From Botrimarina colliarenosi (GTDB lineage Bacteria > Planctomycetota > Planctomycetia > Pirellulales > Lacipirellulaceae), in the NCBI RefSeq assembly GCF_007859955.1, contig NZ_SJPR01000003.1, positions 124,001 through 188,000 on the forward strand: DNA of 64,000 bases, read 5' to 3'. This document shows positions 8,827 to 52,178 of the stretch, one piece after another (within the stretch, counting starts at the first letter, position 1; each line of letters starts with the position of its first letter). A model generated the notes under the pieces. The model was not told where the DNA came from and did not search any database. It was given only the letters and a program-made list of their open reading frames with translations. The position numbers and the translations under genes were made by a program.

Positions 8827-9276
8827 GAGTCGCTGGCGTCCTGAGCGGGGCCAGGCGGGTTGCAACCGCCACCCCGGAACCCTTCGACGACAAGTTCTAA
8901 AGTCTTGAGCCGCGGCCGTTCCCGCCCCCCCCTGGGAACGGACCGCTGGCTTCGCCGGGCTGACGCCCCCGTACCCACGGGGCGAGGCCCGGCACATAGT
9001 CCCCCTTTGTGTGGCGAGGCCCGTCGACCAAGTGGTCGGCGGGCCTCGTCGTTATTTGTAGGGTCCGCGGTGCGGACCGTTGGACCGACTTTCACCCACG
9101 AACCGACTTTACCGAGTCAATTGGCAGGGAGCCGGAAGCGTCAGCGCCCGGAGTGGCGTCGCGGTTGAGTCGTTTGGCGCTTCAACTCCGGGCGCTGACG
9201 CTTCCGGCTCCCTACAACTCGGGAGGGCGAGTTGATCGTTGCGTCGAACCGCCAACCACGGTCCGCCCAGCGGACC
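8827..9276. other. Intergenic region filled by nested palindromes
   Basis: About 450 bases lie between the converging BBP7-type gene and a TPR gene. The region holds a REP-like pair (9058-9078 and 9260-9280) and a perfect 29-base hairpin (9126-9213) nested between them, described separately. A GC-rich stretch at 9000-9050 (GGCGAGGCCCGTC / GGCGGGCCTCG) can also form a stem. No gene is seen. Confidence 0.6.
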
Positions 9277-9280
9277 CTAC
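9058..9280. repeat. REP-like inverted pair, family A (9058-9078 and 9260-9280)
   Basis: Head-facing-out copies of the TAGGGTCCGC...GCGGACC palindrome. The left copy is in plus orientation and the right in minus. The right copy's TAG (9277-9279 on the minus strand) is the stop codon of the TPR gene. The pair is farther apart than the 91-base copy at 52.1 kb because another hairpin lies between them. The same family flanks the RAYT gene at 44.2 kb. Confidence 0.8.
9126..9213. repeat. Perfect 29-base inverted repeat, family D
   Basis: The arms 9126-9154 and 9185-9213 are exact reverse complements of 29 bases with a 30-base loop. The words GGGAGCC and GCGCTGACGCTTCCGG resemble the arms of the hairpin at 22544-22625. 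It sits inside the family A pair. Confidence 0.8.
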
Positions 9281-42751: not shown

Positions 42752-44092
42752 ATGAGCGAACTGCTCTTCCATTACGAGCGAGTTAATCCCAACTCCTGGG
42801 CTTACCTCTCTTCGCTGCTGACGATCGCGTTGTTCTTTAAGTTCAACCGCATCTTTTGCATGCGCAATCTCGACCTACTGCTGGTCGTGCTCTTGGCGCC
42901 GGGCCTGATCTGCATCGAGCAAGCCCTGCGGGGCCAGGCCGACAGCTCCGTCGAGCGGATCGGGTACCTATGGCTGCTGGCCGTCAACGGCATGCTGCTG
43001 GTGCGGATGCTGTACGACGCCTCGATGGTCCGACGGCCGCTGCTCGAGCCCAACATGACCGGCGGGGGGCTCAGCTTCCTCGGCATTTCGCTGATGGCGT
43101 TTCTCGCCGCGAACGTGATGACCGGAAAGCCCGACCCCTCCGACTTGATCGCCGTGCAGCGCGCCGAGCACCTCAGCCAGCGCGAGGCGTCGGAAGTCGA
43201 ACACAACACACTCAGCACCCACGGCCCCGGTTTCACGCTGCTGCTGATGCTGCCGCACGTCTCGACGCGGGCGCTGGTCGCCGACGAGGCGCCCGTCGAC
43301 GGAGACCGGGCCGAGGCCGCTGCCTTCGACGACACCCAGCGGAACGTCTTGACCGCCCAGCTGATGGCGATCTTTTGCCAGGTGATGATCATCCTCGGCA
43401 TGCTGATGATCGCGAAGGACCATTTCGGCAACCTCCAACTCGGCCTCGCAGCGGCGACCCTCTACTTGCTGCTGCCGTACACGGCGCTCTGGACCGGCAA
43501 CGTGACGCACGCCCTGCCGGCGGCGCTGCTGGTCTGGACCGCGTACTTCTACCGCCGGCCCGCCATCGCGGGATCGCTGCTCGGCCTCGCTTGCGGGGCG
43601 ATCTACTACCCCTTCGCCCTGCTGCCGCTATGGACGGCGTTCTACTGGCGTCGCGGGGTGGGGCGGTTCACGACCGGCGTGCTGCTGACGCTCGGCGTCC
43701 TGGTGGCGACGCTCATCTTCACGTCGACCGACGCGGCCATGTTCTTCGACCGCTTGAAGCAGATGTTCGGCCTCCGGCTGCCGGCGATGGACGAGCTCAG
43801 CGGCGTCTGGGCCTTCTGGAACGGCTGGTACCGGGTGCCGATCCTGCTGGGCTTCATCGGCTTGAGCTTCAGCTTCGCCCTCTGGCCGGCGCAGAAGAAC
43901 CTCGCCACATTGCTAAGCGGCACCGCGGCGCTGATGCTCGGCGTGCAGTTCTGGCACGCCCACAGCGGCGGCCTCGCCTTGGCGTGGTACCTGCCGCTCC
44001 TGCTGCTGACAGTCTTCCGCCCAAACCTCGAGGACCACGTCGCCGGCACCGTCGTCGCGCCGAGCCGATGGGAAACCCCCGCCGCGGCGTAG
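42752..44092 (+). CDS. Polytopic membrane protein of unknown function
   Basis: A 446-residue protein with about ten hydrophobic segments (WAYLSSLLTIALFFKF, LLLVVLLAPGLICIEQAL, LTAQLMAIFCQVMIILGMLM, PALLVWTAYFY-like). A hydrophilic, acidic extracytoplasmic loop lies at residues about 130-195. The long-range pattern is like GT-C glycosyltransferase or oligosaccharide-translocase membrane proteins, but I see no catalytic motif. The start ATG is at 42752. The TAG stop codon is the head of a degenerate REP-like element. Function unknown. Confidence 0.8.
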   Translation: MSELLFHYERVNPNSWAYLSSLLTIALFFKFNRIFCMRNLDLLLVVLLAPGLICIEQALRGQADSSVERIGYLWLLAVNGMLLVRMLYDASMVRRPLLEPNMTGGGLSFLGISLMAFLAANVMTGKPDPSDLIAVQRAEHLSQREASEVEHNTLSTHGPGFTLLLMLPHVSTRALVADEAPVDGDRAEAAAFDDTQRNVLTAQLMAIFCQVMIILGMLMIAKDHFGNLQLGLAAATLYLLLPYTALWTGNVTHALPAALLVWTAYFYRRPAIAGSLLGLACGAIYYPFALLPLWTAFYWRRGVGRFTTGVLLTLGVLVATLIFTSTDAAMFFDRLKQMFGLRLPAMDELSGVWAFWNGWYRVPILLGFIGLSFSFALWPAQKNLATLLSGTAALMLGVQFWHAHSGGLALAWYLPLLLLTVFRPNLEDHVAGTVVAPSRWETPAAA

Positions 44093-44213
44093 GGTCAGAT
44101 TTGCGGACCGTAGTGCATGGCGTTTCACCACCGCCAGCGGTGGTGATTACGATAAGCGGACGGTGACCCTGCTGCTTCTGACCTCCAACCACGGTCCGGG
44201 CAGCGGACCCTAC
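44089..44213. repeat. REP-like pair upstream of the RAYT gene, family A (44089-44109 degenerate, 44193-44213)
   Basis: The left copy reads TAGGGTCAGATTTGCGGACC with changes in its centre; its TAG is the stop codon of the membrane-protein gene. The right copy, in the opposite orientation, ends one base before the RAYT start codon. The spacer holds CACCACCGCC...GGTGGTG, which can pair. Confidence 0.8.
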
Positions 44214-44214
44214 G

Positions 44215-44769
44215 ATGCCGAACTACCGTCGGTGTTTTGTTGAGGGCGGAACCTACTTTTTCACGGTTAAGACTGAGGCCAATCACCCGATCTTTGCGTC
44301 GGACGCTCAAGCGACGTTGTTGGGCGTGGTGATGCGAGAAGCGCGTGAGCGCTGGCCTTTTGAGACGGTTGCGTCGGTCCTCCTTCCCGATCATTTCCAC
44401 GCGATATGGACTCTGCCCGCCGGCGACAGCGACTACTCAAAGCGGTGGGCGTGGATCAAGAAGGAGTTCACCAAGCGGCACCTTAAGGCCGGCGGCGCCG
44501 AGCAACCTGTCAGCCAATCACGCCAAGAGAACCGGCGTCGCGGTATTTGGCAGCGACGTTTCTGGGAGCATCTCGTCGAAGGCGAGACCGAACTCGAAGC
44601 GTACGTCGCCTACATCCACTACAACCCCGTGAAGCACGGGTACGCAGCCGCGCCGGGCGAATGGCGATGGACAACGTTCCATCGCTGGGTCGAGAAAGGG
44701 ACCTACTCGCCCGACTGGGGACGGACCGAAACGCCGCCGTCGATCGCAAAGATCGACGGCGGCGAGTAG
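44215..44769 (+). CDS. REP-associated tyrosine transposase (RAYT, Y1 family)
   Basis: A 184-residue single-copy-type transposase. The HUH-related core shows LLPDHFHAIWTLPAGDSDY, with the metal-binding His-x-His motif, and the catalytic tyrosine region in YIHYNPVKHGYAAAPGEWRW. Other RAYT marks are GTYFFTVKTE, KEFTKRHLKAGG and WQRRFWEHLVEGETELEAYV. No IS-type ends surround it; instead REP-like palindromes lie directly on both sides, as known for RAYTs. The stop TAG is part of a REP head. Confidence 0.93.
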   Translation: MPNYRRCFVEGGTYFFTVKTEANHPIFASDAQATLLGVVMREARERWPFETVASVLLPDHFHAIWTLPAGDSDYSKRWAWIKKEFTKRHLKAGGAEQPVSQSRQENRRRGIWQRRFWEHLVEGETELEAYVAYIHYNPVKHGYAAAPGEWRWTTFHRWVEKGTYSPDWGRTETPPSIAKIDGGE

Positions 44770-44885
44770 GGTCCGCTGTGCGGACCGCGGAGGGCGGCAT
44801 GGAGTTTCGCCACCGCCGGTGACTAAAAAGGCAAACCCTGACGGTCCTGCCGGCCTCCAACCCCGGTCCGCACAGCGGACCCTAC
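44766..44885. repeat. REP-like pair downstream of the RAYT gene, family A (44766-44786 and 44865-44885)
   Basis: Inverted copies GTAGGGTCCGCTGTGCGGAC and their reverse complement fill the whole gap between the RAYT gene and the CoA-binding gene. Both genes end in TAG triplets that belong to the two repeat heads (44767-44769 on plus, 44882-44884 on minus). Confidence 0.85.
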
Positions 44886-45262
44886 GCCCCGCGGCTCGCG
44901 CAGTCGATGAGGCTGCACGCTACGATTGGGTTGAGCCCTAGCGCTTCGGCGCGGGCGATCATCTCGGGCGACTCGGTCCCGGGGTTGAGCCACAGCTCGC
45001 CACAGCCCTTGGCGGCGATTGCGTCGAGCAACGTCAGGCCGACGGCGGGCGGCACGTACATCGTGACGCGATCGAGCGGTGACGCCGGGACCTCAGCGAT
45101 CGAGGCGTAGACCGGCAGGCCCTCGATTTCGCCCCCCTTTGGATTCACCGCGAACACCTCGTAGCCGCAACCGGCGTGGGCGCGGAGCGAGCGATTGCCG
45201 AACTTGGTGCGGTCGGCGCTGGCGCCGATGACGGCGACGGTCGGTTTCTTGGGGGCGTCCAT
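44882..45262 (-). CDS. CoA-binding domain protein
   Basis: A 126-residue Rossmann protein of the CoA_binding_2 family. The nucleotide-binding motif is VAVIGASADRTKFGNRSLRA, followed by YEVFAVNPKGGEIEGLPVYA. The later HGCGELWLNPGTESPE-like stretch (KGCGELWLNPGTESPEMIAR) and ACSLIDCAS also match the family. It binds CoA or a related nucleotide; role unknown. It follows the HEAT/TPR gene by 44 bases on the same strand, so they may form an operon. Confidence 0.9.
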   Translation of the reverse strand: MDAPKKPTVAVIGASADRTKFGNRSLRAHAGCGYEVFAVNPKGGEIEGLPVYASIAEVPASPLDRVTMYVPPAVGLTLLDAIAAKGCGELWLNPGTESPEMIARAEALGLNPIVACSLIDCASRGA

Positions 45263-51080: not shown

Positions 51081-51171
51081 GGTGAGCCGTCGGCGCTAGC
51101 CGCGGGTGGCGTCACGGGTGATTCACCCGCGGCTAGCGCCGACGGCTCACCTTGGATCGCCTTTGGCGATC
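51081..51171. repeat. Palindromic repeat, family B copy 4
   Basis: Perfect 28-base arms (51081-51108 and 51124-51151) followed by TTGGATCGCCTTTGGCGATC. This is the reverse-oriented version of the unit at 47877-47961. Confidence 0.85.
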
Positions 51172-51543: not shown

Positions 51544-52091
51544 AGATCCGAGACCGGGTTAAAGAGCTGCGCCGGGTCCGCGCCGGCGACCTGAAGCCGC
51601 ACCCGAAGAACTGGCGGACGCACTCCCGTCACCAGCAAAGCGTCTTGCGAGGCGTGCTCAAAGAGGTCGGCATGGCCGGCGCGTTACTCGCCCGGGAGCT
51701 TCCCGACGGAACTCTGCAACTCGTCGATGGCCACCTCCGAGCCGAAACAACCCCTTCGGCAGTCGTCCCGGTGCTGGTGCTCGACCTGAGCGACGAGGAA
51801 GCGGAGAAAGTGCTGCTGACGCACGATCCGTTGGCGTCGCTGGCCGGCGTCGATGCGTCACGTCTTGGCGAGCTCCTCGGCCGGGTCGAAACCGAGAGCC
51901 AAGCGGTCGGCGAGATGCTCGCCAAGCTCGCCCGCGAGATCGAAGACGACCCTTCGAAGGCCGATCCGCCGGACGTTGTGATCAAGCCTTGCTACCAGGT
52001 CGTGGTCGAGGTCGAAGGCGAGACGCAGCAACAAGAAATCTACGAGCGGATGCGGGCGGAAGGCCATCGCTGTCGGGTGCTAACGCTGTAG
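51540..52091 (+). CDS. ParB N-terminal domain (ParB/sulfiredoxin-fold) protein
   Basis: A 183-residue protein. The ParB-type core is LKPHPKNWRTHSRHQQSVLR, then LLARELPDGTLQLVDGHLRA and VVPVLVLDLSDEEAEKVLLT; the GH(L)R-type motif of ParB/Srx folds is LVDGHLRAE. It has no HTH domain, so it is of the phage type seen beside terminases rather than a partition protein. The fold binds CTP or ATP in other members. Its TAG stop codon is a REP head. Confidence 0.8.
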   Translation: MKIRDRVKELRRVRAGDLKPHPKNWRTHSRHQQSVLRGVLKEVGMAGALLARELPDGTLQLVDGHLRAETTPSAVVPVLVLDLSDEEAEKVLLTHDPLASLAGVDASRLGELLGRVETESQAVGEMLAKLAREIEDDPSKADPPDVVIKPCYQVVVEVEGETQQQEIYERMRAEGHRCRVLTL

Positions 52092-52178
52092 GGTCCGCTG
52101 TGCGGACCGATTCAAGCGGGCGACTCTCCTCCCCCCCGCGGTTTTTCCTCAAGGAACGGTCCGCACAGCGGACCCTAC
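52088..52178. repeat. REPIN-like pair, family A (52088-52108 and 52158-52178)
   Basis: Two exact 21-base inverted copies separated by 49 bases, filling the entire gap between the ParB-like and ABC-GNAT genes. The left TAG is the ParB-like stop codon; the right copy ends three bases before the next ATG. Shows that host repeats have spread into the phage-like cluster. Confidence 0.88.

Follow-up and report, generated by a model that had tools for sequence, protein, structure and literature searches.

A short gene at 44215-44769 of the window, ie the whole 64-kb stretch of DNA analysed here, has palindromes on both sides, and the question it raises is whether gene and palindromes together make up a RAYT with its own REPINs. 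Our answer, given with high confidence, is that they belong to a REPtron, consisting of a single-copy HUH/Y1 RAYT and a cognate REPIN population that would be copied at a low rate.

The RAYT gene and its flanking REPINs

The gene product scored 176.3 bits against the NCBIfam equivalog model REP_Tyr_transpos (NF047646, cut-off 80), and its sole match in the PDB was E. coli TnpAREP (4ER8, E = 4.6e-35). The HUH motif (H60-F-H62), the catalytic Y133 and N137 all align with 4ER8. Both motifs on which the original prediction had based its assignment to the RAYTs, DHFHAIW and YIHYNPVKHGY, are present in the reading frame, and that assignment is borne out by the profile and structure matches. The score against Pfam Y1_Tnp was marginal at 19.9, the gathering cut-off being 23. 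In E. coli TnpAREP the GTAG is contacted by W94, Q95, E100, H101 and R104 (PMC6006769); when aligned to 4ER8, four of these five positions are kept in the window RAYT, as W112/Q113 and E118/H119, while the fifth, R104, is replaced by E122. Its closest named relatives among the GTDB genomes are mostly from Planctomycetaceae/Planctomycetota MAGs; gammaproteobacterial methanotrophs come among the next-nearest.

The repeat unit, or REP, consists of an unpaired GTAG and the hairpin GGTCCGC-TGT-GCGGACC, which has a 7-bp stem and a 3-nt loop and on its own folds with a z of -4.5 against shuffles. The palindromes of one family that had been predicted to lie directly on either side of the RAYT proved to be a complete inverted REP pair, ie a REPIN, on each side (Table 1). 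The left REP of REPIN 1 is GTAGGGTCAGATTTGCGGACCG, the right REP carries two changes, and a single nucleotide separates its right end from the ATG of the RAYT. The block between the two flanking stop codons contains REPIN, 1 nt, RAYT and REPIN, and nothing else, and all three genes (upstream, RAYT and convergent downstream) terminate in the TAG of a REP's GTAG. As single-stranded DNA, both of the window's intact REPINs form long hairpins (z of -8.8 and -7.6 against shuffles), and the degenerate one gave a z of -4.2. Scanning the window against Rfam and for tRNAs gave no hits.

Table 1. Genes and REPINs of the GGTCCGC family in the window.
Feature	Position	Strand	Length	Remarks
REPIN, same family	9058..9280			one loop change per arm; arms 91% complementary
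Upstream gene	42752-44092			stop codon TAG 44090-44092, supplied by GTAG of REPIN 1
REPIN 1	44089..44213			inverted REP pair upstream of RAYT; left REP degenerate
RAYT (TnpAREP-type Y1 HUH transposase)	44215..44769	+	184 aa	ORF, profile and structure matches; stop codon is TAG of REPIN 2's GTAG
REPIN 2	44766..44885			two perfect inverted REPs, 76-nt spacer
Convergent CoA-binding gene	44882-45262	-		stop codon 44882-44884, in outer GTAG of REPIN 2
REPIN, same family	52088..52178			22-nt exact arms, 47-nt spacer

Two further members of the family had been predicted in the window. The one at 52088 is indeed an exact inverted pair, its arms measuring 22 nt rather than the 21 proposed. The pair at 9058 is also real, and has a second, unrelated inverted repeat, AGGGAGCCGGAAGCGTCAGCGCCCGGAGT, nested in its spacer at 9126-9213 with 29-nt exact arms; variants of AGGGAGCCGGAAGCGTCAGCGCCCGGAGT adjoin REPINs in relatives.

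Copy number, stop codons and RAYT clades

In the window alone, TAGGGTCCGC with one mismatch is weakly enriched (10 copies, 5.1 expected). Across the source genome (G000, 5.27 Mb) the exact TAGGGTCCGC occurs 42 times, against 5 for its reversed control, the full REP 34 times and the REP with up to three mismatches 47 times, both reversed controls giving 0. Inspection of 27 loci yielded approximately 20 inverted pairs; the rest were singlets and chance 10-mers, a few of each. Most REPINs are 70-130 bp long, with spacers mostly of 27-81 nt. The genome-wide search which had been proposed as a check, with few copies as the outcome that would speak against REPINs, has therefore returned a dispersed population. 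REPs are clustered on the contig that carries the RAYT (8/22 loci, p = 0.002). The RAYT itself is present in one copy; the next homologue in the genome, 46% identical, is a second RAYT (L120, C8:118178-118693), which is interrupted by an internal TAA and has a different REP of its own, GTAGGGTGGGTCGAGACCCACC.

The use of the repeat as a stop codon is not confined to the three genes of the block. A REP end could be tested if the open frame upstream of it ran to 100 codons or more, which held for 32; at 25 of these the longest such frame stops at the TAG of GTAG, where one third would be expected (p = 3e-7). TAG stop codons derived from GTAG REPs have been published before (PMC3733652).

The flanks of RAYT genes were inspected in about 35 genomes. 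A GTAG-tagged hairpin lies beside many of the genes, and its stem varies from RAYT to RAYT, for instance GGTCCGC at those of G000, G020, G107, G125 and G166, GGTCATGC at those of G254 and G202, GGTCAGGCAC at those of G192 and G221, and GGTCAGGC at that of G001. The five RAYTs flanked by GGTCCGC form one clade (support 96/88, the bootstrap being not fully settled) that spans two taxonomic families. The order was sampled through 296 genomes. Five of these have a RAYT that is 59% or more identical, and each of the five holds 23-55 exact REPs; at least 20 REPs are found in 4 of the other 291. The p of 7e-9 for this association assumes independent genomes, an assumption that congeners violate. Three RAYTs of named genomes outside the sample (L226, L235 and L237, 53-59% identity) are also flanked by GGTCCGC. 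Since L235 and L237 share this REP at 53%, the value of 59% is no strict boundary of cognacy, and identity alone is insufficient to define one. The REPs of G020 cluster near its RAYT, with 24/40 loci within 500 kb (p = 8e-10), although clustering of this kind may reflect a nearby contig start, which is possibly the origin. A GTAG-hairpin REP, inverted pairs, dispersal through the genome and co-occurrence with a RAYT clade were all found, and the palindromes are REPINs as originally proposed.

Frequent REPs in genomes lacking the RAYT had been named as evidence against the system, and this is seen in part, in related genomes with many copies and no RAYT flanked by them. With up to three mismatches, G001, from the same genus as the window, has 88 REP copies and G049 has 56; exact REPs number 25 in G119 and 70 in G122, and G008 and G006 have 14-15 copies each. 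The family is absent from two congeners, G002 and G003. No GGTCCGC flanks were found at the RAYT-like genes inspected in G001, G049, G119 and G122, and in G049 and G001 the Y1 genes detected by Pfam are remote from the listed REPs. These four REP-rich genomes are all congeners of a RAYT carrier, as is G008 (G006 is not), which fits loss of the RAYT and persistence of its REPs. This is the simplest reading, and in E. coli genomes without a RAYT also retain REPINs, in lower number (PMC8049555). The loss may be recent, a related RAYT may act on the REPs, or the host may select for them; any of these could explain the persistence.

Occupied sites, empty sites and rival explanations

In G003 the two convergent genes at the RAYT locus meet directly, at GAGCTAGTTTGC, with neither REP nor RAYT between them. 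In G001 the same locus (L133, C1:5525200-5527300) is bounded on either side by a REP end, and between the two lie other palindromes and a gene that, named from its reading frame, is ankyrin-repeat-like. No RAYT remnant was found in this interval, so that loss and original absence are indistinguishable at that locus. The 52088 REPIN is missing from the orthologous junction in G001, G002 and G003, in all of which the upstream gene stops with TGA; in the window it stops with the TAG of the GTAG. Approximately 19 sites were compared in all, of which about 11 are common to G001, in whole or in part, and 0 to G002 or G003. At seven two-armed sites shared with G001 the arms are identical at 294/308 positions (95%) and the flanks at 81%, the figure for the arms being biased upward because G001 sites with decayed arms were left out. 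Spacers were compared with strict gaps and shuffles, and three were clearly homologous (z > 6), which indicates common descent of those shared sites. An earlier spacer identity of 70-80%, from global alignment with cheap gaps, was rejected as shuffles gave nearly equal values.

Many genes at orthologous empty junctions end in TGA or TAA, and some in TAG. One possibility considered was that, as for IS608, a REPIN inserts on the 3' side of a GTAG already present. The evidence was mixed: at the C3:260089 site of the source genome G001 has a GTAG without a REPIN, and at 52088 three congeners have TGA. At approximately 75-85% nucleotide identity the congeners are too distant to provide clean before-and-after junctions that would define a target site. 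A separate observation concerns locus L138 of G001 and L006 of the source genome (C1:896191), which have the right REP in common. Several hundred bases separate the upstream stop TAG from the REP at L138; at L006 this extra stretch is missing and the stop GTAG runs into the REPIN, as if there had been a deletion between two GTAGs.

Occupancy that differs between congeners bears on what the palindromes are. They could be ordinary intrinsic terminators, or hairpins selected by the host at mRNA 3' ends, with the RAYT adjacent by coincidence; their position at gene ends and the stop codons at 25/32 testable ends agree with this, as does the conservation of arms at shared sites even in G001, where no RAYT is flanked by GGTCCGC. 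Terminators, however, would hardly be expected to form a single sequence family whose GTAG foot is fixed and which is absent from G002 and G003, or to be tied to one RAYT clade when other clades have different GTAG hairpins. A family of intrinsic terminators was rejected on these grounds, and we regard the explanation as very unlikely. Equally little can be made of an autonomous, IS200/IS605-like insertion sequence in which REPIN, RAYT and REPIN move as one unit. The symmetric architecture and the empty junction in G003 are what such an element would give, but it should occur several times over, transposase and ends being nearly identical in each copy, and only one copy was found, the 46% homologue on C8 having a different REP. 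Furthermore, G001 keeps REP ends at the same boundaries with the ankyrin-repeat-like gene between them and no trace of a RAYT, and RAYTs are known as single-copy, vertically inherited genes (PMC8049555). This explanation was also rejected, and its probability is minimal.

Two explanations confined to the sister species deserve rather more weight, though both are improbable. One supposes that matching of REP and RAYT is loose and that the GGTCCGC repeats are mobilised in trans by a related RAYT whose own flanks carry a different REP. G001 has, besides its many GGTCCGC REPs, a 55%-identical RAYT flanked by GTAGGTCAGGCTGTGCCTGAC with the same TGT loop, and the GGTCCGC flanks of L235 and L237 at 53% identity point the same way. 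Against this, the GGTCCGC REPs of G001 do not cluster at its own, different RAYT (9/62 within 500 kb, 10.6 expected) and do cluster around the site orthologous to the window RAYT (27/62 within 500 kb, p = 1e-6), with the qualification that 12 of those 27 positions were placed beyond 5,429,381 by the sort order of the list. Counted by loci among the positions listed, the clustering is weak (11/37, p = 0.04), and as the contig start of G001 falls in the same zone an origin effect may contribute. The other supposes that, after loss of the matching RAYT, the hairpins of the sister species, still a large and well-formed REPIN population, came under RAYT-independent host selection, or concerted correction, and that their arms are conserved for that reason; this too we think doubtful.

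For the REPtron, the most probable course of events can be drawn from E. coli TnpAREP, an enzyme that recognises GTAG-REPs as single strands and cleaves them (PMC6006769, PMC3733652). The window RAYT most likely binds the GTAG foot and the hairpin when the DNA is single-stranded and, like the E. coli enzyme, would cut at the GTAG. REPINs would thereby be copied at a low rate to new sites, the vicinity of the RAYT gene included, and most insertions would fall in intergenic DNA or at the ends of genes, whose stop codon the GTAG can then supply.

Relation to known systems

The system of the window is a good, ordinary member of the RAYT/REPIN kind. It resembles E. coli TnpAREP/RAYT with its BIMEs in homology over 173 aa (4ER8), with the HUH and Y motifs and the W-Q and E-H pairs, and in its GTAG-footed hairpin REPs, arranged as inverted pairs around the gene (PMC6006769; PMC3733652). 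It differs from E. coli in the GGTCCGC stem and in having E122 in place of R104. The subclasses of TnpAREP have been surveyed in PMC6006769. With the REPINs of Pseudomonas fluorescens SBW25 (PMC3116915) and E. coli (PMC8049555) it shares inverted REP pairs with a variable spacer, a long hairpin, and a dispersed population with singlets as remnants. Unlike those, the population is smaller (approximately 20 REPIN pairs, compared to 69-235 REPINs per E. coli genome; PMC8049555), the host lineage is another, and the comparison is across species rather than strains.

The original prediction held that RAYT-REPIN systems are rarely described in planctomycetes, which has to be corrected, since a report of 2013 on Rhodopirellula baltica and other phyla (Di Nocera 2013, PMC3733652) already describes GTAG REPs and tyrosine-transposase genes in R. 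baltica, so that the kind was known. Its REPs have the GTAG foot, form inverted dimers and provide TAG stops, and REPs flank tyrosine transposases there as they do here, in all likelihood in the same phylum. Site occupancy is compared across species in the present study; no such comparison was found in the part of that report available. What is extended here, over several families of one order, in all likelihood a planctomycete one, is a RAYT-REPIN system that is well formed and whose REPs are clade-specific. The comparison set is unusually clean: with matched congeners that have or lack the RAYT, and an empty locus, the upkeep of REPINs after RAYT loss becomes testable by comparison.

Other repeats were also seen. 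The window has an inverted pair GAGCCGTCGGCGCTAGCCGC...GCGGCTAGCGCCGACGGCTC at 51083-51151, which has dozens of partial matches in G001; no transposase was identified for it. Elsewhere in the source genome a divergent RAYT-like gene (L122, C5:156993-157376) lies between inverted GTGGGAGGCGTCTCCAGACGCC hairpins, which are possibly a further REP family.
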